Shown here one piece after another: positions 6,304 through 41,153 of a DNA stretch of 44,439 nt. The stretch spans positions 1-44,439 of the forward strand of contig JAAYAC010000005.1 in the NCBI GenBank assembly GCA_012719535.1. Reading direction: 5' to 3'. Position 1 is the first letter of the stretch, and every line of letters starts with the position of its first letter. Position numbers and translations under genes: made by a program. This DNA comes from Syntrophomonadaceae bacterium. Its GTDB lineage: Bacteria; Bacillota; Syntrophomonadia; Syntrophomonadales; Syntrophothermaceae. The notes beneath the pieces were generated by a model that was given only the letters and a program-made list of their open reading frames with translations, had not been told where the DNA came from and searched no databases.

Positions 6304-6386
6304 CCCGGTTCCCTCCTATTGCCTCTTCAGAAGGATTGACATGGCACTGTCCCCGAAACCTGATGAGTCAGGTCTAATCTTTGGGA

Positions 6387-6848: not shown

Positions 6849-6851
6849 GTC

Positions 6852-7732: not shown

Positions 7733-7744
7733 TGTGATACCCCC

Positions 7745-8800: not shown

Positions 8801-8801
8801 T

Positions 8802-10346: not shown

Positions 10347-10372
10347 TTCAATCCCTCCCCGTATCTCTAATT

Positions 10373-10559
10373 GACGCTGATAACGCAGACTTTATATGAA
10401 TTACGCTGAATTCCTAAAAAGTGACCGTTCAAAACACTAGCATCAAGATAGTTGCATTGATTTTTTGTTCTTGTCAGAGCGTATCTGTGCTCACCTTCAA
10501 CCGATTTCCTTTGTCTAATTTCTGCGTTGAGTCAGACTCATTCAGCTTTGGTCTGCGTC
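10373..10559. repeat. Imperfect inverted repeat of ACGCWGA-like units in the mcp-cheW gap
   Basis: The left arm (10373-10409) has three units of the form ACGCTGA/ACGCAGA. The right arm (10521-10559) has three similar units in the opposite orientation (TCTGCGT forms). The AT-rich centre has no coding potential. The layout resembles a degraded miniature inverted-repeat element inserted in the operon, but no target-site duplication is evident. Confidence 0.4.
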
Positions 10560-10577
10560 TATTCGTTATTCTCCTCC

Positions 10578-12539: not shown

Positions 12540-12589
12540 AGTCTTGTCCTCCTTCTTTGTGCTTAGTAGTGTTTCTGGCAGGGGACTCT

Positions 12590-14083
12590 CTACAATACTG
12601 TCAATCCTCTACCCCTGCGGTTGAGGCTCTCCTTGTTCCCGGAATACACCGCTCCTGTAATCTGAACCTGGTTGGTGGTACCGGTATCCAGATCGAGGGC
12701 CGATACGTTGAGAATGCCGTTCTTGTCGATGGCAAAGGTAACGTCGATATTGGGCTCGCCGGCTTTCGCTTTATGTATCCCTTCCAGGTGAAACCGGCCC
12801 AGGGAAACCAGGCCCTCGCTACCAGCGGTGTTCAGGTCATCCTTCTGCAGTATGTGAATTATCACCTCCTCCTGGTCATCCTCCACGGTGGTGAAGAGTT
12901 TGGATTGCACCACCGGGTAGGAAGTGTTAGCCGGAATCAAAGGAACAAACTCCCCCAGGTTATCCTCGATGCCCAGGGTGTGGGAGGTCACATCATAAAA
13001 CTCGATGTGTTCCACTGCTCCGGCGAGCATGCCCGCCTCGATGGCTGCTCCCAGTGCCACCACTTCATCGGGGTTAATGTCGGTCTTGATTTCGGCGTGT
13101 CCGAACATCTCGCTGACCATATCCCTGAATCCCGGCATGCGCGAGGCGCCCCCGGCTAGAACCACCACGTCGACCCAACGTTCTTCCACTCCCGCCTTGG
13201 CCAAAGTCTGAAGGATGAGAGACCTGATCTCGACGAAAAGGTCGGTGCATATCTTATGAAACGCTGCCCGGCTCACCACCTGGTTCAGGTGCAAGGGACC
13301 GGCTTCACCCATGGTGATGTAAGGAATCAGCACCGAGCTCTCGTTAACGGTGGAGAGGTCAACCTTGACCCGCTCCGCATTGACTTGCACCTGTTGCAGA
13401 GCAACCTTGTCCGCGGTCAGGTCCACTCCCGTCATCTCGTAAAACGTGGTCAGAATATACTGGGCGAGGCGGTTGTCAAAGTCGGTTCCGCCCAGGGTGG
13501 TGGAACCGCCGGTGCCGATGACACGGTATATTCCCTTTTCTCCTTCCATCAGGGTAATATCAAAAGTTCCACCGCCTATATCCAAAACCAGGATGTTTTC
13601 CTTTTTTTCGGACCTGATGCCGTAAGCCAGGGCCGCGGCAGTAGGTTCGTTTAGCAGTTTAAGGACCTTAAGCCCGGCCAGCTCTCCGGCCAGGAAAGTG
13701 GCCTGGCGCTGGTTGTCGTTAAAGTAGGCTGGTACTGTGATGACGGCCGCCTCAATTTCTTGACCTAGGTATTCCCGGGCGTACTGCACCAGCTTGCGCA
13801 AGATCAGAGCGGATATTTCGACCGGGGTGTAGCCCCGCTGGCTTATGAAGACCTGGTAATCCGACCCCATATGTCGCTTGATGCAGCTTACTGTCCGGTC
13901 TGCCTTGAGCACCATCTGGGAACGAGCCAGCTCGCCCACCAGCACTTCCTGATCATTCTTGAAGTACACTACCGACGGAGTCAGTCGGCTACCGCGTTCA
14001 TTGATTACGATCTCCGGTTTTCCTTCTCCGTTGATGAAGGCCACCAGGGAGTTGGTGGTTCCAAGGTCAATACCGACGATCAT
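12590..14083 (-). CDS. Hsp70/DnaK-like protein lacking the C-terminal lid
   Basis: A 497-residue Hsp70-family ATPase. The nucleotide-binding domain (about 1-360) has phosphate-1 ([11 protein letters not shown], residues 4-14), the connect and [11 protein letters not shown] segments (145-155), phosphate-2 ([12 protein letters not shown], 167-178) and the adenosine motif ([11 protein letters not shown], 308-318). A substrate-binding beta domain follows (about 366-478). The alpha-helical lid of DnaK, some 100 or more residues, is absent, and the protein ends in a short basic tail. The interdomain linker reads IEFYD instead of the hydrophobic VLLLD of DnaK, so allostery may differ. It begins 12 bases after the small TPR gene with an excellent ribosome binding site and is followed by the MCP. 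No dnaJ or grpE is nearby, so this is not the housekeeping dnaK operon; a dedicated role in the array is inferred. Confidence 0.92.
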
Positions 14084-14095
14084 TACATCTCCTCC

Positions 14096-14473
14096 TCAGC
14101 TCCTAATCATACCGAGGTTGGCACGGGCAGTGGCGTTTTCGGGGCACACTGCAACCGCGCGCTCCAATAAGCAGCGAGCGGCCTCGGGATGGTTGTTTTC
14201 AAAGAGAATGACTGCTGCGTTGTTGAGAGCTTGCGAAATCAGAGCGCGTGCTTCTGCCGAGGCGGTCTGGGGGTTTCCGAAAAGGTCGATAACCTGGCGG
14301 TAATGATGGTAGGCCTCCCAGGCATTACCCATCTCATCTTCTTTGAGGGCCAGGTCGTAGATGGACCTGGCCCGGGTAAGAAGCGCGTTCTCAGCCGCCC
14401 GGGCGGCCGGAGTACCGGCTGCCGAAAGCAAGATATCAAGTCCCATACCTAGATTTTTTCTGACCATATTCAT
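14096..14473 (-). CDS. Small TPR protein with ParB-like N-terminal peptide
   Basis: A 125-residue protein. Residues about 27 to 125 form roughly three degenerate tetratricopeptide-type helix pairs (ALKEDEMGNAWEAYHHYRQ, ALNNAAVILFENNHPEAAR, ERAVAVCPENATARANLG). The N-terminus, MNMVRKNLGMGLDILLS, resembles the basic K/R-x-G-LGxGLxALL peptide at the start of ParB/Spo0J proteins, which in that family stimulates the ATPase of ParA. A ParA-family gene lies directly upstream (102-base gap) and the Hsp70-like gene is 12 bases downstream. It therefore looks like an adaptor between the ParA ATPase and the chemosensory array or Hsp70. The TPR assignment is fairly secure; the ParA-activating role is inference from a short motif. 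Confidence 0.75.
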   Translation of the reverse strand: MNMVRKNLGMGLDILLSAAGTPAARAAENALLTRARSIYDLALKEDEMGNAWEAYHHYRQVIDLFGNPQTASAEARALISQALNNAAVILFENNHPEAARCLLERAVAVCPENATARANLGMIRS

Positions 14474-14574
14474 TCATCCGACCCTCTCTTCACAGCAGTG
14501 CAGGTTCCGTGGTGTTTCCGCTTGAAACCCGCCGCCGGGAGATTATGTGACCTTGATATCGCCGCGGCGCAGGG

Positions 14575-15360
14575 CTAAGTCAGGCTTCTGTACAGTACTT
14601 CCTCGACAACTTGTTGGTAATCACGTGCCCCCCGGCAACTAGGGGCATACTCGCTTATTGTCTTGCCGAAACTGGGAGCTTCGGCGAGTTTGATGTCATT
14701 CCGCACCGGGGGTAGCAGGCGGTCCTTACCAAAGTTTTTTTGAATTTCTTCCAGGACGCTGCGGGCCAGATTGGTTCGCCGGTCACACTTAACTGGCAGT
14801 ATGCCCATCAACCTGAGAGAAGGGTTAAACTCAGCGTTAACCCGGTACAGGATGTTCATCATCTGTGCGAGCCCATCCATGGACAGAAAAGTGGGCTCGA
14901 TGGGTACAATCAGGTAATTGGCGGCGGCCAACCCGTTAATGGTAATAAGCCCCAGCGAAGGGGGCAGGTCGATGATAATGAAATCGTAGTCCCTATCCAC
15001 TTCCAGCAACACATCGTGCAGCAGCGCTTCACGCCCCGGTGCTTGCGCGGCCTCCAATTCCACCGCTGCCAGATCCGGCTTGGAAGGAATAAGGTCGAAT
15101 GATTTGTGCGATTTGATAATAGTCGGTTCTACGTCGTGCCGTCCTTCCCGGTCTGCCAAAATGAGGTGGAATAATTCGTAGACGGTGGCGGTCAGGCGAT
15201 ACGGGAGGACCCCGCAGCTTACCGTAGCCTGTGCCTGGGAATCGGCGTCCACCAGTAGGACTCTCTTGCCCTGCCGGGCCAGCCCATCGGCGATGTTGAC
15301 GGCGCTGGTAGTTTTGCCACTGCCTCCTTTACGGTTGGCCACAACGATAGTTGATGCCAT
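14575..15360 (-). CDS. ParA/MinD-family ATPase (array partitioning type)
   Basis: A 261-residue ParA-type ATPase. It has the deviant Walker A motif KGGSGKTT at residues 11-18 (signature Lys11), the switch I DADSQAQAT and Walker B IIIDLPPSLG. ParA proteins form ATP-dependent dimers on the nucleoid and move or space cargo. Its stop-to-start context (ATG three bases after the cheA stop, ribosome binding site AGGAGGAT) ties it to cheA, and no parB or parS-like gene adjoins. The chromosomal soj is expected near the replication origin with spo0J, so this is an orphan ParA. The known relatives in this setting are ParC of Vibrio and PpfA of Rhodobacter, which position chemotaxis arrays. Function here is inferred from that parallel. 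Confidence 0.92.
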   Translation of the reverse strand: MASTIVVANRKGGSGKTTSAVNIADGLARQGKRVLLVDADSQAQATVSCGVLPYRLTATVYELFHLILADREGRHDVEPTIIKSHKSFDLIPSKPDLAAVELEAAQAPGREALLHDVLLEVDRDYDFIIIDLPPSLGLITINGLAAANYLIVPIEPTFLSMDGLAQMMNILYRVNAEFNPSLRLMGILPVKCDRRTNLARSVLEEIQKNFGKDRLLPPVRNDIKLAEAPSFGKTISEYAPSCRGARDYQQVVEEVLYRSLT

Positions 15361-15363
15361 GGG

Positions 15364-18156
15364 CTATCCTCCTATTTTGCCGAATAGCTGTATTTTGAGA
15401 AGTTGTACCGGGTTAAGGATGAGGGCTACGCTGCCATCCCCCAGGATGGTCACTCCGGCGTAAATCTTCAGACTGGCTAGCTCTTCTCCCAATGACTTGA
15501 CGAAAAACTCTTGCTGGCCCTGCAGGCGGTCAACGATGATACCGACTCTGATCCCCTCAGCATCGATAACCACGATGGGCAGGCGGTCGTCATCCGGGCT
15601 TCCCGCCGGGCTTTTGGCAAGTTCCCGCGCTTCTAGCCCCAGCAGGCGCGCCAGGTATACCAGAGGAAGTACCTCGCCGCGGATATCCGCGACCATGTGG
15701 TCCCGGTAGCTTCTGGTGTTGGCCCGGGGTAGCTTGACCGTTTCTTGAACCGCATCAAGGGGAAGGATAAATGCCTGACCGGCTGTTTGTACCATTAATC
15801 CTTGGATGATGGACATGGACAGCGGTATTTTCAGAGCGAAGGTGGTGCCGGTTCCGGGGGTGCTATTTACCTCAATGGACCCGCCCACGCGTTCCACGTT
15901 GTTTTTTACCACATCCATACCCACGCCACGTCCGGACAGCTCGCTGATCTCATCACGGGTACTGAATCCGGGAGTGAAGATGAGCTGGTAGGCCTCTTCG
16001 TTACTCATTTTCTCGATGTCATGGGGTTTTATCAGGCCCTTTTGCAGTGCCTTCAGCTTTATTTGTTCAGGATTCAAGCCTCCACCGTCGTCAGTTAATT
16101 CGATGATCGCGTGGTTGCCCTGGTAATAGGCGGCGAGGCGGACGTGACCGGAGGCGTCTTTCCCTGATGCCAGCCGTTGTTCCGGTGATTCGATGCCGTG
16201 GTCCACGGCGTTGCGCAGCATGTGGACCAAAGGGTCGTTGATGGCTTCGATCACGGCTTTGTCCAGTTCGGTGTCTTCTCCTGCGATGGTCAGTTCCACC
16301 AGCTTGTTGGCCCGCCGGGAAATATCGCGGATGGTGCGGGGGTAGCGCTGAAACAGTACGCGCAGGGGAAGCATGCGTGCCGACATGATGGCATCCTGTA
16401 GCTCGTCGGCAATGTGAGCCAGTTCGGCAGCAGCCGACTTAACCTCCCGCGCCAGGGCGGGGAGGTCGTACTGTGAGCCGATCTTGGCAGCAAGATGAAA
16501 GATGCGGTTCTTGGCAATCAGAAGCTCCCCGATCATGTTCATCAGACGATCCAGCTTTTCCTGGCTGACTCTTACGGATTGGCTGCCCGGCTCGCCGGCG
16601 GGGGTGCGGCCTTCACCGGCTTTTTCCCGCGCCTTTTCCCGGGCTGTTGCCTGCCTCTGCAAAGCGATGGCTACATCGGCGGGAGTAGCGGCACCTTCGT
16701 CTACCAGGATTTCTCCCACCCTTTTCTGCTGTTTGAGGGCCCGGTCAAGTTCCCGGGAGGTTATCTTGTTTTCGGCGATTAAGATTTCGCCCAGTCTCTT
16801 GTCGGCGTACTCGGGCGGTACCTGTTGGATCATTTCCTGAATTCCAGACACCCTGGCGCCCAGGAGCTGCTTCAGACGGTCATAACCAGTCCTGAGGAAG
16901 GATGGCACCCCGGCCAGAACCGTGTCTGATTCGGCAGTTAGTTTGTCCAGGTAGGCCAGTTGCTCGCCGCTGGCCCGGACTATATCATCAAACCCCAGGT
17001 AACTGGCTGAGGATTCAACGTTCCTGAGGGCGCGAATGTATTGTTTGAACCGTTTGCGGTTGATGGGGAGACCTTCCCTGACCGTTGCCAGGATGTTGGC
17101 CATGGATTCCAGGGCCTGGCCGGTGATATTTAGGAATGCGTTGAACCGGGCCACCAGGTCGTTGCTCCCGGAGGGCAAACACGCCGGGGTGCTGGCCGGG
17201 ATAGCTATTGTCCCCGCCAGTTTTTCCACCTGTGCCACAAGCTGGTCCGGTGAAAAGTCGGCCGGCTGTTTTTCCTGGACCAACGTAAGTAACATGGCGA
17301 CCTTGTCTACTACCTGCAGTACCAGGTCAATGACGCCCGCCGTTGGTGCGTGAGAATGGTTGCGGTAGGTTTCTACCAGGGTTTCCGTGGCATGGGTCAG
17401 GTTCTTGATCATCAGGACCGGGTCCTGGGAGTCATCCTGTTCCCGCATGCTGGAAATTAGACCGGCTGCGCCTTTTATGCTGTGGAACCCTCGCAGAATA
17501 GCATTCAATGTTTCCCGGTCCTGGGGACATTTCTCCAGTTGAACGCAATTCTGCTCGATGGTATCCAAATGCTCCCGGGTCTCCTCAAGAAAATCGGTCA
17601 GCATCTGGTCCGCCAGTGACGATAGCTCCAGTTGTGAATAGGCGGGGCTGGATTCCCAAGTCTCCCCTGCCTCCTGTACTGTTGCGGTCGGCGCCTTGCC
17701 TTCCGTCGCGCCCTCCGACCTGGTTCTCATCCGTTCCACTTCCAGCACGAATTCCTGGAAATCGCACTCCTCGATCACCACCTCGAAAGGCTCCCGCAAC
17801 GGAGTGCCTTGCACCTCCTGTATCCGGTTGGCCAGCTGTGCGATGAGGAGGCCGAGGATGTCGGCGCCCCGCAGAACCAGGTCGGTAATATCAGCGTTTA
17901 TGGCGTAAGTGCCCGTGCGCACATCGTCGAGCAAGGATTCCAGAGCGTGGGCGGTATTTTTAACGGGAACAAGGTCCACAAAACTGGCCACTCCTTTGAT
18001 GGAGTGCAGGGCGCGAAAGACCGCATCGACAAGTTGGGGGTCAAACTCCGCCTCCAGTTTTAGTATCCCTGCTTCGATTCCTTTCAGGTGCTCGGTGGAT
18101 TCCTCGACGATGCCCTGCAGTATGTCCAGGTCGTCGGGTTCAAAGGTAAACTTCAC
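15364..18156 (-). CDS. cheA: Chemotaxis histidine kinase CheA with two Hpt domains
   Basis: A 930-residue CheA, about 250 residues longer than the classical enzyme. Order of parts: Hpt domain 1 (about 5-110, phospho-acceptor His51 in ALHSIKG); Hpt domain 2 (about 180-310, His225 in GFHSIKGAAG); a third Hpt-like helical segment (about 335-440) in which the histidine position is Arg378 (ALRNVESSASYLGF). A small tandem module of the type II secretion-E N-domain kind comes next (about 450-505, KRLGEILI...RVGEILVDEG), then P3 dimerisation (about 528-620). The P4 kinase domain has N-box HMLRNAVDHG, G1 DDGGGLNPEQ and G2 GRGVGMDVVK. P5, a CheW-like domain, ends the protein (about 780-925). No typical P2 is visible. 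The GTG start has AAAGGCGGT nine bases upstream; cheY precedes and parA follows by three bases. Confidence 0.96.
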   Translation of the reverse strand: MKFTFEPDDLDILQGIVEESTEHLKGIEAGILKLEAEFDPQLVDAVFRALHSIKGVASFVDLVPVKNTAHALESLLDDVRTGTYAINADITDLVLRGADILGLLIAQLANRIQEVQGTPLREPFEVVIEECDFQEFVLEVERMRTRSEGATEGKAPTATVQEAGETWESSPAYSQLELSSLADQMLTDFLEETREHLDTIEQNCVQLEKCPQDRETLNAILRGFHSIKGAAGLISSMREQDDSQDPVLMIKNLTHATETLVETYRNHSHAPTAGVIDLVLQVVDKVAMLLTLVQEKQPADFSPDQLVAQVEKLAGTIAIPASTPACLPSGSNDLVARFNAFLNITGQALESMANILATVREGLPINRKRFKQYIRALRNVESSASYLGFDDIVRASGEQLAYLDKLTAESDTVLAGVPSFLRTGYDRLKQLLGARVSGIQEMIQQVPPEYADKRLGEILIAENKITSRELDRALKQQKRVGEILVDEGAATPADVAIALQRQATAREKAREKAGEGRTPAGEPGSQSVRVSQEKLDRLMNMIGELLIAKNRIFHLAAKIGSQYDLPALAREVKSAAAELAHIADELQDAIMSARMLPLRVLFQRYPRTIRDISRRANKLVELTIAGEDTELDKAVIEAINDPLVHMLRNAVDHGIESPEQRLASGKDASGHVRLAAYYQGNHAIIELTDDGGGLNPEQIKLKALQKGLIKPHDIEKMSNEEAYQLIFTPGFSTRDEISELSGRGVGMDVVKNNVERVGGSIEVNSTPGTGTTFALKIPLSMSIIQGLMVQTAGQAFILPLDAVQETVKLPRANTRSYRDHMVADIRGEVLPLVYLARLLGLEARELAKSPAGSPDDDRLPIVVIDAEGIRVGIIVDRLQGQQEFFVKSLGEELASLKIYAGVTILGDGSVALILNPVQLLKIQLFGKIGG

Positions 18157-18172
18157 GCCCGGTTACCGCCTT

Positions 18173-18550
18173 TCATTGCTTGCCCAGGAGCATGCGGATA
18201 TTCTCTACCAGGACTTCGGGCTCGGTAGGTTTCACGATATACACGTTAGCTCCTGCTTCAAATCCGCGCGCCTTGTCCTTCACTTCATCCTCGGTAGAAA
18301 TGATTACTATTGGTATCTCTTCGTAGGCGGGATCGTCCCGCAAACGTTCAATAAACGTATAGCCATCCATGTTAGGCATGTTGATGTCAGTCAACACCAT
18401 GACCGGGGCCTGGTCGCTGGCATATAGTTTTTCCAGGGCGTCGGCTCCGTCAACGGCGGTGATTACTTCCAGGCCGATACTTTTCAGAATGTAGCCATGA
18501 AAGTTACGCACCATTTCAGAGTCATCAACAATAAGAACCTTGTTTCTCAT
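18173..18550 (-). CDS. cheY: CheY-like response regulator (cheA-linked)
   Basis: A 125-residue single receiver domain: acidic pair Asp9-Asp10 in LIVDDSEMVR, phospho-acceptor Asp55 in VLTDINMPNMDG, then the Ser/Thr switch in VIISTEDE and lysine in IVKPTEPE. It has GGGAGG before its ATG. It lies just upstream of cheA, which makes it the most likely direct phosphoryl target; the second CheY of the operon is next to cheB and cheX. There is no DNA-binding or enzymatic output domain. Confidence 0.93.
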   Translation of the reverse strand: MRNKVLIVDDSEMVRNFHGYILKSIGLEVITAVDGADALEKLYASDQAPVMVLTDINMPNMDGYTFIERLRDDPAYEEIPIVIISTEDEVKDKARGFEAGANVYIVKPTEPEVLVENIRMLLGKQ

Positions 18551-18583
18551 AAATGTTCCCTCCCCAAGGTGTCAGGCGGAATG

Positions 18584-18615
18584 CCCTCTGCCGGGGTACG
18601 GCCCGCAGCGGAGGG
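18584..18615. other. GC-rich hairpin between cheR and cheY
   Basis: CCCTCTGC pairs with GCGGAGGG (one G-U) around an inner CGGG/CCCG stem. In the leftward direction of the operon it has no T-run, so it is more likely an mRNA processing or stability element than a terminator. Confidence 0.35.
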
Positions 18616-18645
18616 TGTCCCTTTGTTTGTTCAAGTGCAGGGTGT

Positions 18646-19485
18646 TCAAGCCTGGTATACTATATGGTTGCCCAGCCTGGTTATCCGGAAAGCCGTACTG
18701 ATGCGGCTTAATGATTCGGCATGACCCAGAAAGACGAATCCTCCCTTGTTGAGCATGGCGTAAAACCGGTCCACCACTTGCTTGCGAGAAGACTCGTCAA
18801 AGTAGATGAGTACATTGCGGCAGAAAATAAAGTCATAGTTGCTCTCATAGCGTAAGGCCCGCCGGTCCATAAGATTGAGATGTTCGAACACTACCATGTC
18901 ACGGATTTCAGGCTTTATCAGGAACTCGCCCGGAACCGGGCTGGTAAAGTACCTGGTCAAATATGGCGGTGGAACGTCTTTTACCGAACGGATGTCGTAT
19001 AGCCCGCGCCGTGCAGCGGCCAGGACTCTCTGGTCGATATCGGCGGCCTTGATCACCACATCCCAGCGGTCGAGGTCATCTATCATTTCCTTGAGGATTA
19101 TGGCCAAGGTATAAGGTTCCTCCCCGGTGGAACAACCGGCCGAAAAAACCTTGATGGTCCGCTCACCCGTAGCCAGTTTACGCTGTATCACTTCCGGCAG
19201 GCACGCTTCGGCGAACACCTGCAACTGGGAAAACTCTCGGAAGAAGTAGGTTTCATTCACGGTGAGCAGATTGATGAGTTCTTGAAACTCGCGCTGTTCG
19301 CCGTCAAAGAACTTCAGAAACCGGAAATACTCCCGGGCACTCGGGATGCCCAGTGCTTCCATGCGTTTTTGCACCCGCTTTTTCATAAAATAGACCTTGT
19401 GTTCGCCCAAATAAATGCCGGTACGGTCGTAAACCAGGTTTCTTAATTTGATGAAATCCTCGACTGGCAGATCCAAGCTTCTCAC
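18646..19485 (-). CDS. cheR: Chemotaxis protein methyltransferase CheR
   Basis: CheR methylates receptor glutamates with S-adenosylmethionine. The 279-residue protein has the alpha-helical N-terminal domain (about 1-75), the KRVQKRMEALG basic segment and NETYFFRE. The SAM-binding motif SAGCSTGEEPYTLA is near residue 116, and FDFIFCRNVLIYF and FLGHAESL lie towards the C-terminus. All are standard. The GTG start overlaps the TGA stop of the preceding REC-HEAT gene (GTGA), though a TTG nine bases further in, with GAGGTGAG in front, is an alternative. It pairs with CheB for adaptation of the soluble MCP. Confidence 0.96.
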   Translation of the reverse strand: MRSLDLPVEDFIKLRNLVYDRTGIYLGEHKVYFMKKRVQKRMEALGIPSAREYFRFLKFFDGEQREFQELINLLTVNETYFFREFSQLQVFAEACLPEVIQRKLATGERTIKVFSAGCSTGEEPYTLAIILKEMIDDLDRWDVVIKAADIDQRVLAAARRGLYDIRSVKDVPPPYLTRYFTSPVPGEFLIKPEIRDMVVFEHLNLMDRRALRYESNYDFIFCRNVLIYFDESSRKQVVDRFYAMLNKGGFVFLGHAESLSRISTAFRITRLGNHIVYQA

Positions 19486-20951
19486 CTCGCCTGCTGCAAC
19501 TGCTCTATCGCTCTGTCGATAGCCTCCAGCAGATCGTCATCAGTAACCTGGTCCCGGAGGCAGCTCAGAACGGGTATCGCCCGGCTATCGCCGAGAAGCC
19601 CCAAGCCTTCCACCGCTCCCAGGCATACCAGTTCCTGTGCCGGTTCAAGATGTTGCTCAAGCAGCGAAAAAATTTCGGCGTTACGGAATTCGCCTAGCAA
19701 AACCAGCAGTTCATACTTGTTTATGTCATTGATTCCCGAATCCAGGTAAACGGTAATTGCCGACAACAGTTCGGGAGGAAGATAGTTGCGTTCGCTGTGG
19801 CGAAGAATGCCTTCGATGGCATTGATGATTTCTTTGGCCATCAGTTTACCTTTTTCTAGGAGAAGCGAGGTGACCAGCGGCAGGTGAGTCTCGGTCCCTT
19901 TGGAGGCTACAAACTTCAAATAGGAGTACTGTTCCAGCGGGCTGATGGACTCGTAGGTGGGGTAAGCCGCGGCCACTGCTGCGACCGATTCCTGGTCGCC
20001 GATCAGAGCCATGGCCTCCAGGCAGGTACAGCGCAATAGCAGGTTGCTGGCAGAATTGAAGATACGGTTAATCTTATCGATGTGGGCGGCGGCTTCCAGG
20101 CGGCCCAGGTATTCGACGGCGGTAATTACTATATTGATATCGGGATCGTCAAGGGCCTCCGCGATCAGGTTCGCTGCGAACGGGCTGTTCAATTGAAACA
20201 TTACGTCGAGGGCAAATTTTCTCACGTCTTTGTCAGGGTCGCCCAGCAATTTCTCGAGCGGGGCCAGGGCAGTTTCGTTCTGCCGGGAGAGGATGTCTAT
20301 GGTAGCGTTACGGATGAAAGCATCGTCACTGCGCAAAAGGGGGATTACTTGTTCAACCAACTCTGTACCTTTCATGTTGCGCAAGGCATTGACGATAACC
20401 TCCCGGACAAAACGGGAAGGCTCGATCTGCAACCGTTCTACCAGGGGCCCGATGCCTTCGGTCAGATTATCATAGCCTATGTCCTCCGCGGCAAACGCTC
20501 GTTCTTTTTCATCTACGGAATTCAGTGCTGCAGTCAATGCCGCAATTTCTGGCAAAGAAGCTCCACTCCTTTCCATGGGTTGTAATACCTGGTGTGCGGC
20601 TACCTGCTCGGTTATGTTGATCAATTCCGCTATATTAATGGGTTTGTGCAGGTAGTCCAAAGCACCGGCCTGCAGGGCCTCCAGAGCTGTTTCTGAACCA
20701 CCATATCCCGTAAAGAGGACCACGTCCACGTCACTCCCTCCAGGCAGAGAGCGGATTTTACCTAGCAAGTCTAGCCCGGACATTTTCGGCATGCGTATGT
20801 CAGTCAGAACCAGCTGAAACCTTTTACGGGTGATGGCTTCCAGGGCATCAATGCCGTTAGATTTTTCCACCACGTTATGCCCCAGTTCTCTTAAAAAACC
20901 AGCTATGCTCATTCTGCTTTCTTCTTCATCGTCGACCACCAAAATATCCAC
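19482..20951 (-). CDS. Receiver domain fused to HEAT-like repeats
   Basis: A 489-residue response regulator with an unusual output. Residues 1 to about 120 form a receiver domain (acidic pair in ILVVDDEEESR, phospho-acceptor Asp51 in VLTDIRMPKMSG, lysine in LHKPINI). The rest, about 140 to 485, is a series of HEAT/PBS-lyase-type helical repeats (for example VNALRNMKGTELVEQVIPLLRS, RKFALDVMFQL), a protein-binding solenoid. The start chosen is GTG at 20951, five bases after GGAGGTG; the ATG at 20987 upstream lacks a good site. The receiver is about 60 percent identical by eye to that of the NtrC-type regulator one gene upstream, implying duplication with a change of output domain. It is the first gene after the sigma54 promoter and overlaps cheR. 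Confidence 0.88.
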   Translation of the reverse strand: MDILVVDDEEESRMSIAGFLRELGHNVVEKSNGIDALEAITRKRFQLVLTDIRMPKMSGLDLLGKIRSLPGGSDVDVVLFTGYGGSETALEALQAGALDYLHKPINIAELINITEQVAAHQVLQPMERSGASLPEIAALTAALNSVDEKERAFAAEDIGYDNLTEGIGPLVERLQIEPSRFVREVIVNALRNMKGTELVEQVIPLLRSDDAFIRNATIDILSRQNETALAPLEKLLGDPDKDVRKFALDVMFQLNSPFAANLIAEALDDPDINIVITAVEYLGRLEAAAHIDKINRIFNSASNLLLRCTCLEAMALIGDQESVAAVAAAYPTYESISPLEQYSYLKFVASKGTETHLPLVTSLLLEKGKLMAKEIINAIEGILRHSERNYLPPELLSAITVYLDSGINDINKYELLVLLGEFRNAEIFSLLEQHLEPAQELVCLGAVEGLGLLGDSRAIPVLSCLRDQVTDDDLLEAIDRAIEQLQQAR

Positions 20952-21218
20952 CAGCTCACCTCCGGCCAAGTAATTGTAGGCGATCATAACCCTTGTCGGC
21001 GCCTACAGAAAGCATTAAGGATAGTTGTTAAGCAACACGTGCCGGGGTAGGTGGTCATGGCCCCCGGTCGGGGGCTGCCGTTGAACGGGCGATAATACTG
21101 GTCCGGCACGCCTGCAGCCAAGTCAACGAGCAGGAACAATCTCAGTATGAAATTAGAATTCTTCAGCGCTTTCAGTGTCTGTTTTTGCGTCTGAGAGTCA
21201 CGGTTAACCAATCGCCAC

Positions 21219-21233
21219 GCAAAAAGCGTGCCA
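21219..21233 (-). promoter_or_regulatory. Sigma54 (-24/-12) promoter for the chemosensory operon
   Basis: Read leftwards the sequence is TGGCACG-CTTT-TTGC, matching the RpoN consensus TGGCAC-N5-TTGC, with the invariant GG and GC ten bases apart. Transcription would start near 21207 and run into the REC-HEAT, cheR, cheY, cheA genes. The gene immediately upstream encodes an NtrC-type sigma54 activator, which fits well. Confidence 0.82.
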
Positions 21234-21321
21234 ACTTGTTAAGGATAAGCGCGGCCGGCTTGCCATCCCGAAAAGACAAAAAAAGAGGACTGGTTAGTTC
21301 CCTTCTCAAGTGAACCTTTTG

Positions 21322-21345
21322 GTACACCAGATGTCTCACATGTAC
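21322..21345. promoter_or_regulatory. Candidate upstream activator site (inverted repeat)
   Basis: GTACA at 21322-21326 and TGTAC at 21341-21345 form a spaced palindrome about 115 to 140 bases upstream of the predicted sigma54 start site. The distance suits an enhancer-type site, but there is only one copy in view and the motif is short. Confidence 0.3.
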
Positions 21346-21369
21346 TTTTTCGCACGCTGTGCTCAAGAA

Positions 21370-22797
21370 CTAGGACAGGTGTTTGAGCCGGCAATAGAGA
21401 GACCGCCGGGAGATACCGAGATACCTGGCCGTTACCGCTTTGTTGTAGTTATGCATGTGCAGGGCTGCGCGAATAATATTGTTTACGTATTCTTCCAGGG
21501 GCAGCCTGTCCGCCGGAAGGGTAAAGTTGCGATAGTCTATGATGGAACTGTTGACGGTGTTGGGAAGCCCGGCCCGGCATCGCTCTGGTTCAAGCATTTC
21601 CAGGTGGCAGGGTCTCAGCTGGGTGTCATCCCACAGCAGGGCTACCCTGGCCATGACGTTCCTCAATTCCCTGACATTGCCCGGCCAGGGATAGGACAAC
21701 AGTATCCGGGCCGCCTCCTCGCTGATGGTGGCGAACTGCTTGCCTTTCTTACGGCTGAATTCATCCAGAAATATGCTGGCCAGGGGGATGATGTCTTCCG
21801 GGCGCTGCCTGAGCGGCGGAATGTGGATGCGAGCCACGTTGAGACGGTAATAAAGATCCGCCCTGAACGTACCCTGGGCCACGCATTTTTCGATGTCCTG
21901 GTTGGTGGCGCAGACGATGCGTACGTCCGTGGGTACTGTTTGCAGGCCTCCCACCCGGTAAAACTCTTTCTCCTGGATAACCCGCAGCAACTTGGCCTGA
22001 AGTGATACCGGAATCTCGGTGATCTCATCAAGGAAAAGGGTGCCGCCTTTAGCCAGGTCCAGCTTGCCTTTTTGGCCTCGGGCCAGCCCGCCGGTGTATG
22101 CTCCCGCCTCGTAGCCGAAAAGCTCGCTTTCAAACAGGGTGGGGGACAGAGCAGCACAATTAATACCGACAAACGGGAAATCGGTCTCGTCTTCGCCGTG
22201 GTGGATATACCTGGCGACAAGCTCCTTGCCGGTACCGGTTTCCCCCTCGATCAATACCGGCACCGAGCGATCGGTATGCAGTTTGCGGGCTTGGTCGATG
22301 ACTTCACGCATGGCCCCGGAGAAGAAAACCATTTTGGTGTGCGTATAGGATTCATCACGTTTAACAGCATCCCCCCCGGCAGCCGCGTTCGTGTTCTTCG
22401 CGGTATCTTCCGTTCTTTGCCGTGGGCCGGTAGACTGGCTCTTGGCCACCTGCTCGGTCAAGCGGCACAGCTCCTCGATGTCAATAGGTTTGAGCAGGTA
22501 GTCATGCGCACCGGAACGCAAGGCTTCCACCGAGGTTCTGAGATCGCCATACCCGGTAAAAAGGACTACTCTTAAGTCCTGCCCGCCCGGCAGGCTGCGG
22601 ATGTGGCGAAGAAGTTCCAGGCCGGATAGCCGGGGCATCTTGATATCAGAGAGTACCAAGTTGAACTCTTCCGTGCAAACCGATTGCAGCGCCTCGTACC
22701 CGTCGTCCTTTTCTACGACCGTGTGCCCCAGTTCGCGCAGGAACTCGGCTACATGTAACCGGCTTTCGCTTTCATCATCCACCAGCAGAATGTTCAA
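21370..22797 (-). CDS. NtrC-family sigma54-dependent response regulator
   Basis: A 475-residue activator. It has a receiver (phospho-acceptor Asp51 in VLSDIKMPRLSG), a linker, then an AAA+ domain with Walker A GETGTGKE near 185 and the sigma54-contact loop GAYTGG near 232. This loop is normally GAFTGA or GAYTGA, so the last residue is a variant. Walker B GGTLFLDEI and sensor motifs follow, and a Fis-type helix-turn-helix ends the protein (ALHMHNYNKAVTARYLGISRRSLYCRL). The probable start is TTG at 22797, which has GGAAGGTGG upstream and aligns exactly with the start of the REC-HEAT paralogue; ATG at 22830 is possible. It sits between a PAS histidine kinase and a sigma54 promoter and is the obvious activator of the chemosensory operon. 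Confidence 0.93.
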   Translation of the reverse strand: MNILLVDDESESRLHVAEFLRELGHTVVEKDDGYEALQSVCTEEFNLVLSDIKMPRLSGLELLRHIRSLPGGQDLRVVLFTGYGDLRTSVEALRSGAHDYLLKPIDIEELCRLTEQVAKSQSTGPRQRTEDTAKNTNAAAGGDAVKRDESYTHTKMVFFSGAMREVIDQARKLHTDRSVPVLIEGETGTGKELVARYIHHGEDETDFPFVGINCAALSPTLFESELFGYEAGAYTGGLARGQKGKLDLAKGGTLFLDEITEIPVSLQAKLLRVIQEKEFYRVGGLQTVPTDVRIVCATNQDIEKCVAQGTFRADLYYRLNVARIHIPPLRQRPEDIIPLASIFLDEFSRKKGKQFATISEEAARILLSYPWPGNVRELRNVMARVALLWDDTQLRPCHLEMLEPERCRAGLPNTVNSSIIDYRNFTLPADRLPLEEYVNNIIRAALHMHNYNKAVTARYLGISRRSLYCRLKHLS

Positions 22798-22890
22798 CCA
22801 TACCACCTTCCCGCTTGTAAGGTCTTGCATCCGAGTTGTAACGATTCCTTCCTGACCCTTTTTTCGGGCAAACGTCTTTACGGTTCCCGG

Positions 22891-36298: not shown

Positions 36299-36949
36299 TT
36301 ACTTGGCCCAGGGACCGAAGGGCTTGCCCACAGGCAAAACCTCCTGACCGTAATGTGTGTTCAGTACCGAGGCTGCGGAACCATAGAAAGAGAGAATGGC
36401 AATGGCCAGCTCAGACCAGGCGGCCAGCTCGTGCCAGGCTTCGCCCCCCCATCCCAGGGTGTTCATAAAAAGGCCCAGGAAGAGCAGGTCGATGAAGAAG
36501 AAAATGAAGAATAATACCTTATGGGTTCCCATCGCCCCTACTGTCATATAAACAGTGAAGATGAAATACCCCAGGAAAGCCATTCCCAGCTGTTTGGGGT
36601 CAATCGCGGCCGCAGCAGCTTGGCCGAACATTCCCAAAGAGATCATCCAGCTCATGGCCACTCCGAACCAGAAGAAACCGTATCCACAGAAGGCCGTCGC
36701 CCCAAAGGTGTTATTGTGCTTGAAGTCAAATAACCCGGCGACGAACTGAGCTGTAGCTCCCAGGAATATGGCCCAGGGAAGGATAAAGGCTGTACCCTGG
36801 GTCAGGCCCAATTTTTGCGAGGATGCTACCAGAGTAACCATAGCCAATCCCAGCAGCCCCAGAGCTGACGGGTTGGCTACAACTTCCTGCACATGACCCA
36901 CAACTGTTACTTCCTTGACTTCATTTGCCTTAGGCGCTTGGTTTTTCAT
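36299..36949 (-). CDS. GPR1/FUN34/YaaH (SatP-type) acetate/succinate transporter
   Basis: A 216-residue membrane protein with six predicted membrane helices between about residues 30 and 200. The family signature NPSALGLLGLAMVTL is near residue 26, followed by GATAQFVAGLFDFKHNNTFGATAFCGYGFFW. The family moves acetate, and in some members succinate, with protons across the cytoplasmic membrane. The ATG has GGGAGGTAAC directly before it. It is 207 bases downstream of the KaiC/PAS operon on the same strand. No strong promoter is visible in that gap, so it could be co-transcribed, which would link the signalling module to carbon supply. Confidence 0.93.
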   Translation of the reverse strand: MKNQAPKANEVKEVTVVGHVQEVVANPSALGLLGLAMVTLVASSQKLGLTQGTAFILPWAIFLGATAQFVAGLFDFKHNNTFGATAFCGYGFFWFGVAMSWMISLGMFGQAAAAAIDPKQLGMAFLGYFIFTVYMTVGAMGTHKVLFFIFFFIDLLFLGLFMNTLGWGGEAWHELAAWSELAIAILSFYGSAASVLNTHYGQEVLPVGKPFGPWAK

Positions 36950-37156: not shown

Positions 37157-37684
37157 TTACCGGTAACTCGTAGCGGTCCGGGTGAAGTCGTCAAGTAGTT
37201 CCTTCATGGTAGACAGTTCCTGGCAGATGAGTTCCAGGAACTCGCGAGGTTCTCCTCCACTTTGTGCCAGTAGCTGGCACAGGCCGTAAACCACGGTGAG
37301 GGGGTTTATCATTTCTGTCAGGGTACCAACGGCCAACTGACCGACTACCGACAAGCTTTCCGCCTTTAACAGCGTTTGTTTAAGCCGGGACGTGATTGTG
37401 TCATCCCGTAGGGTGATCATAACTTGCGGGGAATTGGTTTCCAGGCTGGTGGCGGTTGCCCAATAGACTGTTCCCTGGGACCTGAGCTGAACCAGTTTCG
37501 ACTCACCGGCTGAACCCAGCAGGCTCTGTTGCGTCAGTTCCCGCAACTCTTTGTCCAGGTGGCATTCTTCTTCCTCGTCCAGGGAGTTTAACATCTGGCG
37601 CGCGGCCTCGTTGCAGTACACCAGCTCCGCATCCTGATTGTACACAATAATTCCTAGGGGAAGCTTATCCAAAATGCAAGTCAC
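37157..37684 (-). CDS. PAS protein with a degenerate histidine-kinase DHp and no ATPase domain
   Basis: A 175-residue protein. Residues about 5-100 form a PAS domain (LPLGIIVYNQDAELVYCNEAARQML). Residues about 108-170 match the DHp dimerisation helices of histidine kinases (SLSVVGQLAVGTLTEMINPLTVVYGLCQLL), but the phospho-acceptor position, normally His in AHEINNPL, is Thr123. The ATPase domain is absent altogether: the gene ends after the second helix. It cannot autophosphorylate and may act as a dimeric sensor or as a partner that captures a kinase or response regulator. The GTG start overlaps the winged-helix gene by 20 bases. It is last in the KaiC operon. Confidence 0.85.
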   Translation of the reverse strand: MTCILDKLPLGIIVYNQDAELVYCNEAARQMLNSLDEEEECHLDKELRELTQQSLLGSAGESKLVQLRSQGTVYWATATSLETNSPQVMITLRDDTITSRLKQTLLKAESLSVVGQLAVGTLTEMINPLTVVYGLCQLLAQSGGEPREFLELICQELSTMKELLDDFTRTATSYR

Positions 37685-37958
37685 CGCTGGATATGTCTCC
37701 TTTCGGCGAGGAAAACTGGTAATCTTTTACGGAGCCAAACGAGGCCTTGAGACGGTAAATTGCCCGTTCTCCCTGGCCCACCTTGGTCAAGATACCGACC
37801 TCTAGCAATTCCTTGACAACCTCGGCCACCAGCTCGGTTTCCAGAAAGAGGCGACGGGCTAGTCCTTCCAGGGTATCCCGGGTGTGAGGATTTTTTTGAA
37901 AGAAAGCTAATACTTCTATTTTACCGATCGCGCGGGAAACATCCTGGTTATCTAGCAT
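37665..37958 (-). CDS. Small winged-helix protein
   Basis: A 97-residue protein with a winged-helix fold over about residues 8-70 (IEVLAFFQKNPHTRDTLEGLARRL, VVKELLEVGILTKVGQGERAIYRL), similar to small transcriptional regulators or protein-binding winged-helix domains. The ATG at 37958 is preceded by AGGAGGA five bases upstream; a longer open frame starting further back overlaps the V4R-like gene and has no such site. It lies between the V4R-like gene and the PAS/DHp gene and is the only candidate DNA-binding protein of this operon. Whether it binds DNA is not shown by sequence alone. Confidence 0.8.
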   Translation of the reverse strand: MLDNQDVSRAIGKIEVLAFFQKNPHTRDTLEGLARRLFLETELVAEVVKELLEVGILTKVGQGERAIYRLKASFGSVKDYQFSSPKGDISSGDLHFG

Positions 37959-37968
37959 GACAGTCCTC

Positions 37969-38946
37969 CTAGAGGTGTTTGGGCAGTACCACAAATTCGC
38001 AGCAACTGTTTCCCAGGGCTTCACATTCCATCTCTTCGCATTCCATCTCCATGTTCCAGGCCCGGCTGAAGTACGCGGCCAGCCTACCCCGGGCGCTGTC
38101 GCAAGTCATATGAGGTGTAAGGAAGAGATTATGCTTAAGAAACATCTCGGCCATGTATGAGCCGTAACCCCGAATCCGTGCCCTCTTATTAATTTCATCA
38201 AATTCCACTATCTCGTAGCGAATGACTCCCAGGTAATTGGTATGCTGCAGCAGCCACTCGATCAGCTCGCGCTTGTCGGGATAGCGAGGGTCAACCCGGT
38301 CATACTCTACCAGGCTAGCACTGTAACTGGATTGGTAAAGGACCTGGGGGAGGATCTGGGGCGCATACTGGTAGATGGCCTTCAACAGGTAGCCGTAGGT
38401 ATTAGTAGAAACCACCACGGCACGTTCGCCGGCAATGGTGATGCGGTCTCCTTTCCGAGCCAGGATGTTGTCAGCCAGCCCGGCCGGGGAAATGTAACCT
38501 ATGGAGGAATTCCCCTCCGAATTGATGGTCATCTCGACCTGATAAGGTTGGTCAGTCAAATGGGATACTACCCACTTGCAGCTGACCATGCGAGGGCAGA
38601 CAAAGGGAAGCCCTTCTTCCCGTGCTGTGGTGCAGTACTCCAGGTAAATGCACCCCTGGCGCTGGATTTCGACGCGCAGCCGGTCCCCTTCTTCCTGGAA
38701 CCGGTAGTGATGCTTGTTAACAAATCCCTGGGCATCCATGACGTCGATCCAGGCACGGCAAATATCTGCGGGTCGTTTCGAAGCGGGGGTGAAAAGATGT
38801 CTAAACTTACGAAACATCCTTTCCACCATCATCTCGGTTGACAGTTCTATCCAGTAATCTCCGCCCATGGGAACCTGGCTGGTAACCTGGCTCATTCCCA
38901 GGTAAATGTTGTTCAACATGGCATACAGAAAATCGGTGTTTGACAT
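37969..38946 (-). CDS. V4R-like sensory protein
   Basis: A 325-residue cytoplasmic protein. The second half (about 190-325) ends with the cysteine pattern CEEMECEALGNSCCEFVVLP, like the V4R (4-vinyl reductase-type) small-molecule binding domain. The first half also has a Cys-rich segment (CIYLEYCTTAREEGLPFVCPRMVSCKW near 94-120), which suggests a related domain or a metal or iron-sulfur site. V4R domains bind hydrocarbon-type or tetrapyrrole-related ligands, sometimes with metal. Its ATG is four bases after the single-KaiC gene, and GGGGGTAG precedes it. It is most likely the input sensor of the KaiC operon. Confidence 0.75.
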   Translation of the reverse strand: MSNTDFLYAMLNNIYLGMSQVTSQVPMGGDYWIELSTEMMVERMFRKFRHLFTPASKRPADICRAWIDVMDAQGFVNKHHYRFQEEGDRLRVEIQRQGCIYLEYCTTAREEGLPFVCPRMVSCKWVVSHLTDQPYQVEMTINSEGNSSIGYISPAGLADNILARKGDRITIAGERAVVVSTNTYGYLLKAIYQYAPQILPQVLYQSSYSASLVEYDRVDPRYPDKRELIEWLLQHTNYLGVIRYEIVEFDEINKRARIRGYGSYMAEMFLKHNLFLTPHMTCDSARGRLAAYFSRAWNMEMECEEMECEALGNSCCEFVVLPKHL

Positions 38947-38950
38947 GTGT

Positions 38951-39664
38951 CTACCCCCATAGTTCTTGTATTATCACAACCCCTATCTTATCGGCGATAG
39001 TATAGAAAAGCTGCGAGGAATCAAATTTGCCGCTCTTCAGTTTACCCACATGAAGTGCCCGCATCGGGCGTTCCGGTGACCCCGCATAGTACATCTTGAC
39101 GATGACATCATAAAGGTGAGAGGACACTTTGAACGCTGTATCATCGATCACCTCATCTACGATAAGATCCATGGTCAGGATGTCCTCCTTCTTGCGCAGT
39201 TTGAGACGGTACCGGTGAAACTCGAGGATTTCCTGACTGTCACGCCCCAACAAGAGGGTGGAGAGGCTGTCTACCACTAGCCGCAGAGGCTTGCCGGCTG
39301 CGGCTTTAATCACCCGGTTTTCCAGGGCCAGGTACTTCTCCAGGGGATCATCGCCGGCGAAATGGTATTTTTCCGTCGGCTCCAGGCTGTAGGCGTCCAC
39401 GAAGACCAGGCGGTCGGTTTCTTCAAAGGGCAGGGGATGCAGTCCGTATTGCTTGAGGGTTTGCCGGACCGCATGGGGGGATTCGTCGCAGCAGACGTAT
39501 ATACACGTATCTTTACAGCCCAGGCCTTCTTTGATGAACTGAGCCGCCAACACCGTTTTGCCCACCCCGCTATCGCCCCTGATCATGATCTGAGAGCCAT
39601 AAGCCATACCTTCCCCGATGATCTTGTCTACACCGCTTATCCCGAAATAACCTGATTTCTGCAC
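38951..39664 (-). CDS. Single-domain KaiC-like RecA-superfamily ATPase
   Basis: A 237-residue P-loop ATPase of the KaiC/RadA group: FGISGVDKIIGEGM, Walker A GDSGVGKTV at residues 30-38, the segment CCDESPH where KaiC has the catalytic EE (here Asp-Glu), and Walker B LRLVVDSLSTLLL near 120. The C-terminus has LHVGKLKSGKFDSS, the end-of-domain loop that acts in KaiC-like proteins. The start is GTG at 39664 with GGAAGGAG upstream, three bases after the stop of the double-KaiC gene; a longer open frame overlapping that gene is not used. Function unknown; probably forms hexamers with or beside the double KaiC. Confidence 0.88.
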   Translation of the reverse strand: MQKSGYFGISGVDKIIGEGMAYGSQIMIRGDSGVGKTVLAAQFIKEGLGCKDTCIYVCCDESPHAVRQTLKQYGLHPLPFEETDRLVFVDAYSLEPTEKYHFAGDDPLEKYLALENRVIKAAAGKPLRLVVDSLSTLLLGRDSQEILEFHRYRLKLRKKEDILTMDLIVDEVIDDTAFKVSSHLYDVIVKMYYAGSPERPMRALHVGKLKSGKFDSSQLFYTIADKIGVVIIQELWG

Positions 39665-39666
39665 GT

Positions 39667-41070
39667 TTATCTCCTTCCCAACCGGCGGAAGATCTCCATA
39701 CCCCGCTCGGAAATTTCTGCTCGGTGAGTCCCCGGGGTAAATTTTCCGCCTTTCATCTTGGTAACTTCCAGCAGCCACTTACGCCTGCCTTTTTCCACGG
39801 TCGTTGAAAGGCAGATTTCTCCCTGGACCAGTGGTTTAATAACACTTGTCAGGTAAGACGCCGGAGGCACGGTATCGTAACTCAGAATTGCCAGGGTTGT
39901 ACAACCCGTTTGGTTAAGGGCGCGGAACAGGTCGCGAAGGTACCCTTTTAAAACCAGTGGGTTTTCCACCACTTCAGCAAAACTATTGACAGAATCGATT
40001 ACCAGCCGCCGGATAGAGTTCTGCCTAACCATGGTGGTAATCTCCGCGATAACCTCCTCCGGCTCGGTACCACCGAAAAACTTGTCAAAAACCAGGATGT
40101 CTCCGTTGGTTAATGCCTCCGCCAGCTCGCCAAAATCAAAAGTTTTAGCATAAACCTGCAGGAAAGCGGTACTTTCCTCGGTAGATAACAACAGCCCTCG
40201 TTCCCCCCGCCGGGCACCTTCCAAAAGGTAGTGCAGGCCAGCCACGGTCTTGCCGGTGCCCGAATCGCCTTCCACCGTAACCGTAGTACCGCGAAGGAGT
40301 CCACCCGACAGAATACCGTCAAGACCCGCAATACCAGTACTCACCTTTTCCGGCAAAGGCATGGGTGGCTCGGACACGGATTGCTGCATACCGGAAAGCC
40401 CGGCCCGCAGTATCTTTATGCCGTCGGAGCCAAACTTGAAAGCGTGTCTACCAGTAATAAAATCCTGTCCCCGCGATTTCATTATCTCCAGATAACGTCG
40501 GCGCCGACTGGGAGATTCCATAAAGTACAGGCTAATAACCGTATCTACCACATATTCCACAAAAGAAACTTGGTTGTTGGTGTGGTCGTCCGCCTCACGT
40601 ATCAATATCGAGGTCAATCCCAGCCTTTTCAGGCCGCTGCACACACTGTACACCATGCGTCGCTGCTGGCTTTCATCGCTGATAGTCATGCTTAACTGGG
40701 TAACGCTATCAAGGACCAGCCGCCTAGCCCCTATTTCCTGAACGAGATCGTCCAGCAATCCCGCCGCTGGATCCAACACCACGTCCGGCGAGGTACAGAC
40801 CGTCCTCAGCAAACCTCGTTTTTCGAGCTCCGGCAGATCCCAACCGTAGTTGGCAGCATCCCGGTAAATCTGCTCCGGGAACTCCTCAAAAGTTATAATA
40901 ATACCTGGTTCATTCGCCTGCACTATCCCTCTATAGATAAACTCCACACCCAAGGTGGTCTTGCCTGTGCCGGGGACTCCCTTCACTAGTATGGTGCTGT
41001 TACGATGAAAACCACCATATAGCAGCTCGTCAAGGCCAGCTATACACGATTTCACCAGCAAGCTTTTCAC
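39667..41070 (-). CDS. Double-domain KaiC-like ATPase
   Basis: A 467-residue protein with two tandem KaiC/RadA-type domains, the layout of the cyanobacterial clock protein KaiC, although kaiA and kaiB are absent here. Domain 1 has Walker A GVPGTGKTT (31-39), the EE pair in TFEEFPE (62-63) and Walker B RRLVLDSVTQL. Domain 2 has Walker A GDSGTGKTV (268-276), the EE pair in STEES and Walker B RRLVIDSVNSF. The C-terminal VTKMKGGKFTPGTHRAEI loop matches the KaiC end motif. It is first in the operon, with a sigmaA-like promoter about 50 bases upstream of the ATG. In other bacteria such KaiC-like proteins take part in stress or timing pathways; here the role is unknown. Confidence 0.93.
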   Translation of the reverse strand: MKSLLVKSCIAGLDELLYGGFHRNSTILVKGVPGTGKTTLGVEFIYRGIVQANEPGIIITFEEFPEQIYRDAANYGWDLPELEKRGLLRTVCTSPDVVLDPAAGLLDDLVQEIGARRLVLDSVTQLSMTISDESQQRRMVYSVCSGLKRLGLTSILIREADDHTNNQVSFVEYVVDTVISLYFMESPSRRRRYLEIMKSRGQDFITGRHAFKFGSDGIKILRAGLSGMQQSVSEPPMPLPEKVSTGIAGLDGILSGGLLRGTTVTVEGDSGTGKTVAGLHYLLEGARRGERGLLLSTEESTAFLQVYAKTFDFGELAEALTNGDILVFDKFFGGTEPEEVIAEITTMVRQNSIRRLVIDSVNSFAEVVENPLVLKGYLRDLFRALNQTGCTTLAILSYDTVPPASYLTSVIKPLVQGEICLSTTVEKGRRKWLLEVTKMKGGKFTPGTHRAEISERGMEIFRRLGRR

Positions 41071-41125: not shown

Positions 41126-41153
41126 ATTCTAAAGCAATTACCAAGCCAGTCAA
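41126..41153 (-). promoter_or_regulatory. SigmaA-type promoter of the KaiC operon
   Basis: Read leftwards: TTGACT (-35), 16-base spacer, TAGAAT (-10). The -35 matches five of six consensus bases and the -10 matches five of six. The start site would be about 50 bases upstream of the double-KaiC ATG. Confidence 0.65.

Follow-up and report, generated by a model that had tools for sequence, protein, structure and literature searches.

A conserved five-gene set with KaiC-like ATPases in anaerobic bacteria appears to be a signalling system rather than a clock

Kai proteins outside the cyanobacteria are often called circadian by annotation alone, and a row of genes with two KaiC-like ATPases in a bacterial anaerobe raises the question of whether it encodes a clock or something else. 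The row lies in a stretch of 44,439 nucleotides (the window), contig JAAYAC010000005.1 of the Syntrophomonadaceae bacterium assembly GCA_012719535.1. Five open reading frames on the minus strand, from 37157 to 41070, are in transcription order A, B, C, D and E (Table 1); A and B are separated by 2 nucleotides (nt), B and C by 4 nt, and C and D by 10 nt, and D and E share a 20-nt overlap. A preliminary description of the window had reported this arrangement of two KaiC genes, a V4R gene, a winged-helix gene and a PAS-DHp gene, overlapping or 2 to 10 nt apart, and all five frames were found with the Pfam content it implied. Here we report that many strictly anaerobic bacteria have the five genes as a conserved unit, and that its products appear to form a signalling system of an undescribed kind, not a clock.

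With duplicates removed and strict thresholds applied, 23 other sequence-distinct loci carry all five genes in an unchanged order, with overlaps or very short gaps between them. Searching GTDB genomes with an alignment of B proteins gave about 30 close loci, most of which have all five genes, and the neighbourhoods of C homologues in the window's order and phylum repeatedly showed the arrangement A-B-C-D-E. Many of the compared loci come from metagenome-assembled genomes (MAGs). The hosts include Pelotomaculum, Sporotomaculum, Desulfofundulus, Desulfocucumis, Desulfoscipio, Syntrophaceticus, Thermacetogenium and MAGs of the Syntrophomonadales. In a sample of 399 genomes from one phylum, 12 had B (E<1e-40), and these were also the 12 that had full-length C; D occurred in 22, among them at least 11 of the 12 genomes with B and C, among the matches listed. 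Homologues of C of any kind were present in 6 of the 63 genomes of the window's order. Sharing of the order by more than 20 other loci excludes chance. The flanks vary by clade, with glgP and SatP genes in one, a murA-type gene upstream and argS and pyrG downstream in another, transporter genes or carB in others, and further arrangements besides; because the flanking genes differ between lineages, the five genes are the unit, rather than the synteny of some larger block. Co-occurrence of the five families in other genomes, the test that the preliminary description had named for its proposal, was thus borne out. The pairwise distances of all five proteins also correlate, with r from 0.85 to 0.96.

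The set has been rearranged at least in family f63, where two genomes (loci L102 = G137 and L103 = G173) have the order E-D-A-B-C. In both, the C protein carries an NMT1-type binding domain as a fusion, and the E protein of L102, which was scanned, is a hybrid kinase with PAS, histidine kinase, REC and Hpt parts. A related row without D and E was seen in a Chloroflexi MAG (L071) and a Deltaproteobacteria MAG (L075); it consists of two double-KaiC (KaiC2) genes, a gene for a 118-137 aa protein outside known families, a B-type KaiC gene and a gene for a short V4R protein.

Is the unit a clock? The double-domain architecture of A, with both Walker A motifs intact (GVPGTGKTT and GDSGTGKTV), is that of a clock KaiC. 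B has the Walker A motif GDSGVGKTV, with CDES where KaiC has FEE, and is strongly conserved among the operons, with a mean column identity of 67% in the alignment. Walker A is intact in all three KaiC domains of A and B in the orthologue alignment, and the closest solved structures of both proteins are KaiC proteins. In HMMER alignments, the positions of the CII phosphorylation pair of KaiC, S431 and T432, are K and P in the window's A, and a Ser/Thr pair is not retained in its relatives. One aligned chain reads E/E at what are presumably these two sites, which fits the register. KaiB gave no match to PF07689 in the window's own genome, which is 98% complete, in agreement with the preliminary description's report that kaiB is absent; across 17 genomes with the operon or a variant of it, one partial match passed the cut-off. 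The same description had offered KaiC oscillators as a nearest concept. An oscillator is unlikely because the KaiC phosphorylation pair is K/P and no KaiB was detected in the genome, and on these two grounds we rejected a Kai clock.

A model of full-length C (predicted local distance difference test, pLDDT, 82; predicted template modelling score, pTM, 0.51) gave PDB matches to the phenol-sensing domains of MopR, DmpR and PoxR. For its C-terminal domain, Foldseek aligned the fold with that of MopR (5kbh; E 2.9e-8; template modelling score, TM, 0.59 on the target), and the Pfam V4R match (1.9e-7) is barely above the cut-off. Residues C282, E305, C308 and C316 line up in HMMER alignments with Cys, Glu, Cys and Cys of CapR/DmpR and of MopR, and all four are kept in 24 of 24 C proteins. 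The zinc ligands of DmpR are given as Cys151, Glu172, Cys177 and Cys185 (PMC7264223); counted along our alignment, the DmpR Glu matching E305 stands three residues before the second Cys, and the printed number is off by two. By these alignments the C-terminal domain keeps a predicted zinc site, of three Cys residues and a Glu, like that of DmpR and MopR.

Modelled separately, the N-terminal domain of C gave a pLDDT of 92.9 and a pTM of 0.87. It has no convincing Pfam family, and a PDB sequence search returned nothing useful. Plausible fold matches are H-NOX, TRAPPC3/Bet3 and YslB, with probabilities near 1.00 and TM of about 0.45-0.66. Since designed proteins outrank these by E-value, though with TM near 0.3, the models are suggestive, and not strong, grounds for placing the domain in the H-NOX/TRAPP/V4R fold superfamily. 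Cysteines C63, C99, C105 and C117 of this domain are invariant in 24 of 24 operon C proteins, and C148 is found in 23 of 24, the window having Ser. Thus C is predicted from the models to be a tandem of two related ligand-binding folds. The two halves were also considered as recent duplicates, and this was rejected, as hhalign gave a probability of 0.8% and the agreement is in fold only. The Cys-rich V4R-like sensor of the preliminary description is in this respect revised to a predicted tandem of two folds, whose putative zinc site resembles the one in phenol sensors. The conserved cysteines, in anaerobes, would be compatible with redox or metal sensing, which makes redox a possible signal, and by analogy the V4R fold would be compatible with a small hydrophobic ligand. 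The strongest hint of an input role for C is its NMT1-type binding domain in family f63.

Stand-alone copies of the N-terminal domain of C, about 155 aa long and with the same cysteine set, were seen in four genomes of the window's family. They lie in the window's own genome (G000:C166:11408-11839) and at loci L018, L019, L020 and L021, and the flanks that were fetched have no match to the other operon genes. Cysteines C99, C105, C117 and C148 are conserved in these paralogues too.

Most E proteins outside the window's class are PAS-HisKA-HATPase kinases of 327-409 aa. The H-box His is present in every such E examined from standard operons, and the ATP-binding G boxes in nearly all. The window's E has the H-box GTLTEMINPL, in which Thr replaces the phosphoryl-acceptor His, and ends after the DHp domain, with no HATPase_c detected by Pfam. 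E was found in four genomes of the window's class; its His position is T in the window, T in its nearest relative (L015), V in L016 and T in L099, and no ATPase boxes are left; the L016 E is interrupted by an N run and carries less weight. The shortened form of E persists in three genomes of the window's family. Compared with L015 by codon position (1/2/3), the window differs by 0.43/0.29/0.66 in E, by 0.33/0.26/0.57 in C and by 0.38/0.26/0.67 in D, so that E looks, from its codons, like a protein under purifying selection. From this pattern and the parallel retention, we judged a pseudogene unlikely. The comparison identifies the E of the window's class as a lineage-specific remnant of a full histidine kinase. 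The preliminary description had seen a PAS protein with a dead DHp and no complete kinase; both statements are true of the window's class, where E lacks the His and the HATPase domain, and neither extends to the other operons examined, which encode a full kinase.

D homologues match the HVO_A0114, MarR_2 and TrmB winged helices weakly in profile searches, and AdcR/ArsR structures weakly as well. D is a recurrent partner of KaiC genes in other families, as in the orders REC-D-KaiC2 (L101) and KaiC2-D-GAF-LuxR (L104). D and E are also found together on their own. In L099, a single-contig genome of 2,405,559 bp from the window's family, the order is D-E-SatP and A, B and C are all missing from the locus, and L100 has D and a kinase-type E where its relatives have all five genes. 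Because D and E persist without A-B-C in these genomes, they form a sub-unit. At L101 (G080, 5202-7494) a receiver-domain protein, a D-type winged helix and a double KaiC adjoin, possibly a missing response-regulator link. At L104 and L105 a D-type winged helix adjoins LuxR-type regulators with GAF and PocR sensory domains, the PocR match being weak in L104.

Our preferred reading, to which we give a probability of about one half, is that the five genes encode one signalling module around non-clock KaiC ATPases, with C as the input, A and B as the relay, and D-E as the output. The two stacked H-NOX/V4R-fold domains of C would read a small molecule or a redox state, one through its DmpR-like zinc site and the other through its own cysteine set. 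C would then set the assembly or the ATP state of A and B, which would serve as ATP-binding relays. At the output, the PAS-DHp protein E would hold or release the winged-helix protein D, which would act on promoters. In most hosts E would do so as a histidine kinase with catalytic residues; in the window's class it would be without kinase chemistry and would act by conformation alone. The sequences themselves show the conserved unit with its order and domains, the zinc-site residues, the loss of the His and of the ATPase domain from E, the purifying pattern on E and the survival of D-E by themselves; we infer the direction of information flow, the physical complexes, the binding of DNA by D and the nature of the signal. 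A bolder version, that this is a new signalling class in which a KaiC assembly couples a zinc/cysteine tandem sensor to a winged-helix protein via a PAS-DHp dimer, phosphotransfer-free in one class so that a dead kinase is a purely conformational switch, is put forward tentatively, as somewhat doubtful.

Several points weigh against the preferred reading. A response regulator is not linked in the standard operons, which leaves the kinase without an evident target. D, weakly matched to DNA-binding families, could be a protein adaptor, and A and B may make no mutual contact. Distance correlations of r 0.85-0.96 are also expected from shared descent alone. Finally, D was missed by its profile in G034 and G038; the G038 contig ends inside C, and G034 has an N run at the C/E boundary, so absence of D is not established in these two.

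If in most hosts E phosphorylates an unlinked response regulator, the KaiC genes might be accessory to an ordinary two-component system, D being an accessory adaptor and the window's class being in the course of losing the system. The His and, nearly always, the ATPase boxes of E outside the class agree with this, as do the separation of A-B-C from D-E in L099 and L100 and the small share of genomes in the order with a C homologue. The lack of a linked response regulator in the standard operons counts against it too, and the truncated E, retained in three genomes of the family, shows codon-position differences like those of C and D; at 49% identity, a pseudogene would be unlikely to preserve one frame and the same end. 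We consider this reading unlikely, though to be taken seriously. Slightly lower stands the proposal that D, instead of being a transcription factor, would serve as a connector and dock the PAS-DHp dimer of E onto the KaiC assembly, with output through contacts of A and B with other machinery. Of the other families, D has KaiC without E beside it in L101 and L104 and E without KaiC in L099 and L100, and it lies beside regulators that have a LuxR helix-turn-helix (HTH) of their own (L104, L105), as a connector might; its better profile matches, however, are DNA-binding winged helices, and a D-E pair without KaiC would still require an output.

A Kai-type timer or oscillator working without KaiA could draw on the double-domain architecture that A shares with clock KaiC, the best PDB match of A. 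The replaced phosphosites and the near-absence of KaiB described above make it very improbable, and the hosts are anaerobes without known light-dependent life. Smaller still is the chance that the genes are neighbours without joint function, which the co-occurrence results already speak against. Each family is also found apart, as with the other KaiC-family ATPases in the genome and the stand-alone N-terminal domains of C in four genomes, but order and adjacency are held across several families despite different flanks, and family f63 has a complete though rearranged set. The single signalling module remains the reading that we prefer.

Table 1. Positions in the window of the five genes, their parts and adjoining features
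Feature	Position	Strand	Description and basis
Gene A	39667..41070	-	467 aa; KaiC-like ATPase, two RecA/KaiC domains; Pfam KaiC x2, 2.9e-91; PDB KaiC matches; orthologue alignment
Gene B	38951..39664	-	237 aa, GTG start; single-domain KaiC-like ATPase; Pfam KaiC 4.8e-26
Gene C	37969..38946	-	325 aa; predicted tandem H-NOX/TRAPP/V4R-fold sensor; Pfam V4R 1.9e-7; structure model; PDB MopR/DmpR/PoxR matches
C, N-terminal domain	38482..38946	-	residues 1-155; outside any Pfam family; own model and fold matches
C, C-terminal V4R domain	37972..38424	-	residues 175-325; predicted zinc-site residues C282, E305, C308, C316
Gene D	37665..37958	-	97 aa; small winged-helix protein; weak MarR-type Pfam match, 0.008
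Gene E	37157..37684	-	175 aa; PAS-DHp protein; Pfam PAS_8 and HisKA, no HATPase
E, codon of residue 123 (Thr)	37316..37318	-	phospho-acceptor His here in examined operons outside the window's class; 39 E homologues and the window aligned
Candidate promoter TTGACT-16-TAGAAT	41126..41153	-	pattern scan; upstream comparison with nearest relative
SatP/AceTr acetate transporter gene (outside the unit)	36299..36949	-	NCBIfam AceTr_1; directly downstream, 207 nt from E

The preliminary description had also given the operon a sigmaA-like promoter. A pattern match is present, and the nearest relative has the same -10 element, TAGAAT, ahead of its operon; the scan, however, found 6 sigmaA-like sites against 4.4 +/- 1.9 in shuffled sequence, which is not above chance, and the promoter is weak evidence. 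Upstream of the operon lies a divergent gene of the glycogen phosphorylase type. SatP adjoins the operon in the window's family only, including the nearest relative (L015) and, beside D-E, L099; SatP is common in operon hosts but lies elsewhere in the genome. Acetate had been suggested as a cue, and the SatP neighbour in this one family is the extent of its support. Since the flanks are unrelated outside the family, acetate is unlikely as a general signal, and we rejected it as such. A link to the Wood-Ljungdahl pathway was likewise dropped. A gene of about 556 aa just after the operon in nine loci resembled formyltetrahydrofolate synthetase (FTHFS) by length, and its sequence, judged by eye, is that of an arginyl-tRNA synthetase. 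It is followed by genes for a metallo-beta-lactamase (MBL)-type protein, CTP synthase and a FemAB-type protein, a row that therefore represents housekeeping synteny.

Other features of the window are recorded for completeness. Between 35269 and 36949, SatP is followed by a convergent Kinase-PPPase (PpsR-type) gene, and a similar pair of SatP and PpsR-type genes is seen in L099. A large chemosensory-type cluster (6387-22830) has CheA-, CheB-, CheR- and soluble MCP-like genes; within it are a 514 aa protein with three CheW domains (8802-10346, minus strand), an Hsp70-like protein (12590-14083), a ParA-type ATPase and a REC-HEAT protein (19482-20987).

Syntrophs, acetogens and sulfate reducers are among the hosts; they make their living close to the energy limit, and the sensing of energy or redox state there is poorly understood. 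The named species are Pelotomaculum propionicicum, Syntrophaceticus schinkii and Desulfofundulus thermosubterraneus. A fixed bacterial set, with KaiC proteins that lack the clock phosphosites and with constant sensor and output partners, makes a non-clock signalling role for KaiC directly testable. The change from kinase to stub within one conserved operon amounts, in addition, to an experiment of nature that asks if signalling by a histidine kinase can continue without phosphate.

How does the set compare with known systems? In the literature searched we found no description of the five-gene combination, in keeping with the preliminary description, which did not recognise it; the 2017 proposal of Makarova, Galperin and Koonin was judged only through a citing paper. 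That paper, on archaeal two-component systems (PMC5847659), mentions KaiC and V4R and, in the parts consulted, does not describe this set; the other such papers appear unrelated by title. Like cyanobacterial KaiC, A has the CI-CII architecture together with the Walker motifs; the set differs from KaiABC in the lack of a detected KaiB in the window's genome, in the K/P phosphosites, and in its V4R, winged-helix and PAS partners. The sensor domains of DmpR, MopR, PoxR and XylR (XylR_N-V4R) resemble the C-terminal domain of C in fold and in the zinc-ligand residues. Unlike them, C is stand-alone, with a second, N-terminal domain of predicted related fold and no AAA+ sigma54 part. MsvR, whose model matches the end of C weakly, is a transcription factor, in contrast to a tandem sensor with KaiC partners. 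MetOD1 of methanogen response regulators is similar in its V4R/HNOB-like fold, its conserved cysteines and its occurrence in anaerobes; MetOD1 is a response-regulator output domain (PMC5847659), whereas here a predicted tandem sensor has KaiC ATPase partners. Lastly, KaiC-like ATPases have been proposed as archaeal signal transduction hubs (Makarova, Galperin and Koonin 2017, cited in PMC5847659). As that proposal appears in the citing paper, the likeness lies in the joining of KaiC-family ATPases with sensory, HTH and two-component parts, in the operon and its variants; the present set is distinguished by its bacterial, anaerobic hosts and its fixed five genes, in which single- and double-domain KaiC proteins stand with a predicted tandem V4R-fold sensor and a PAS kinase or its dead remnant.

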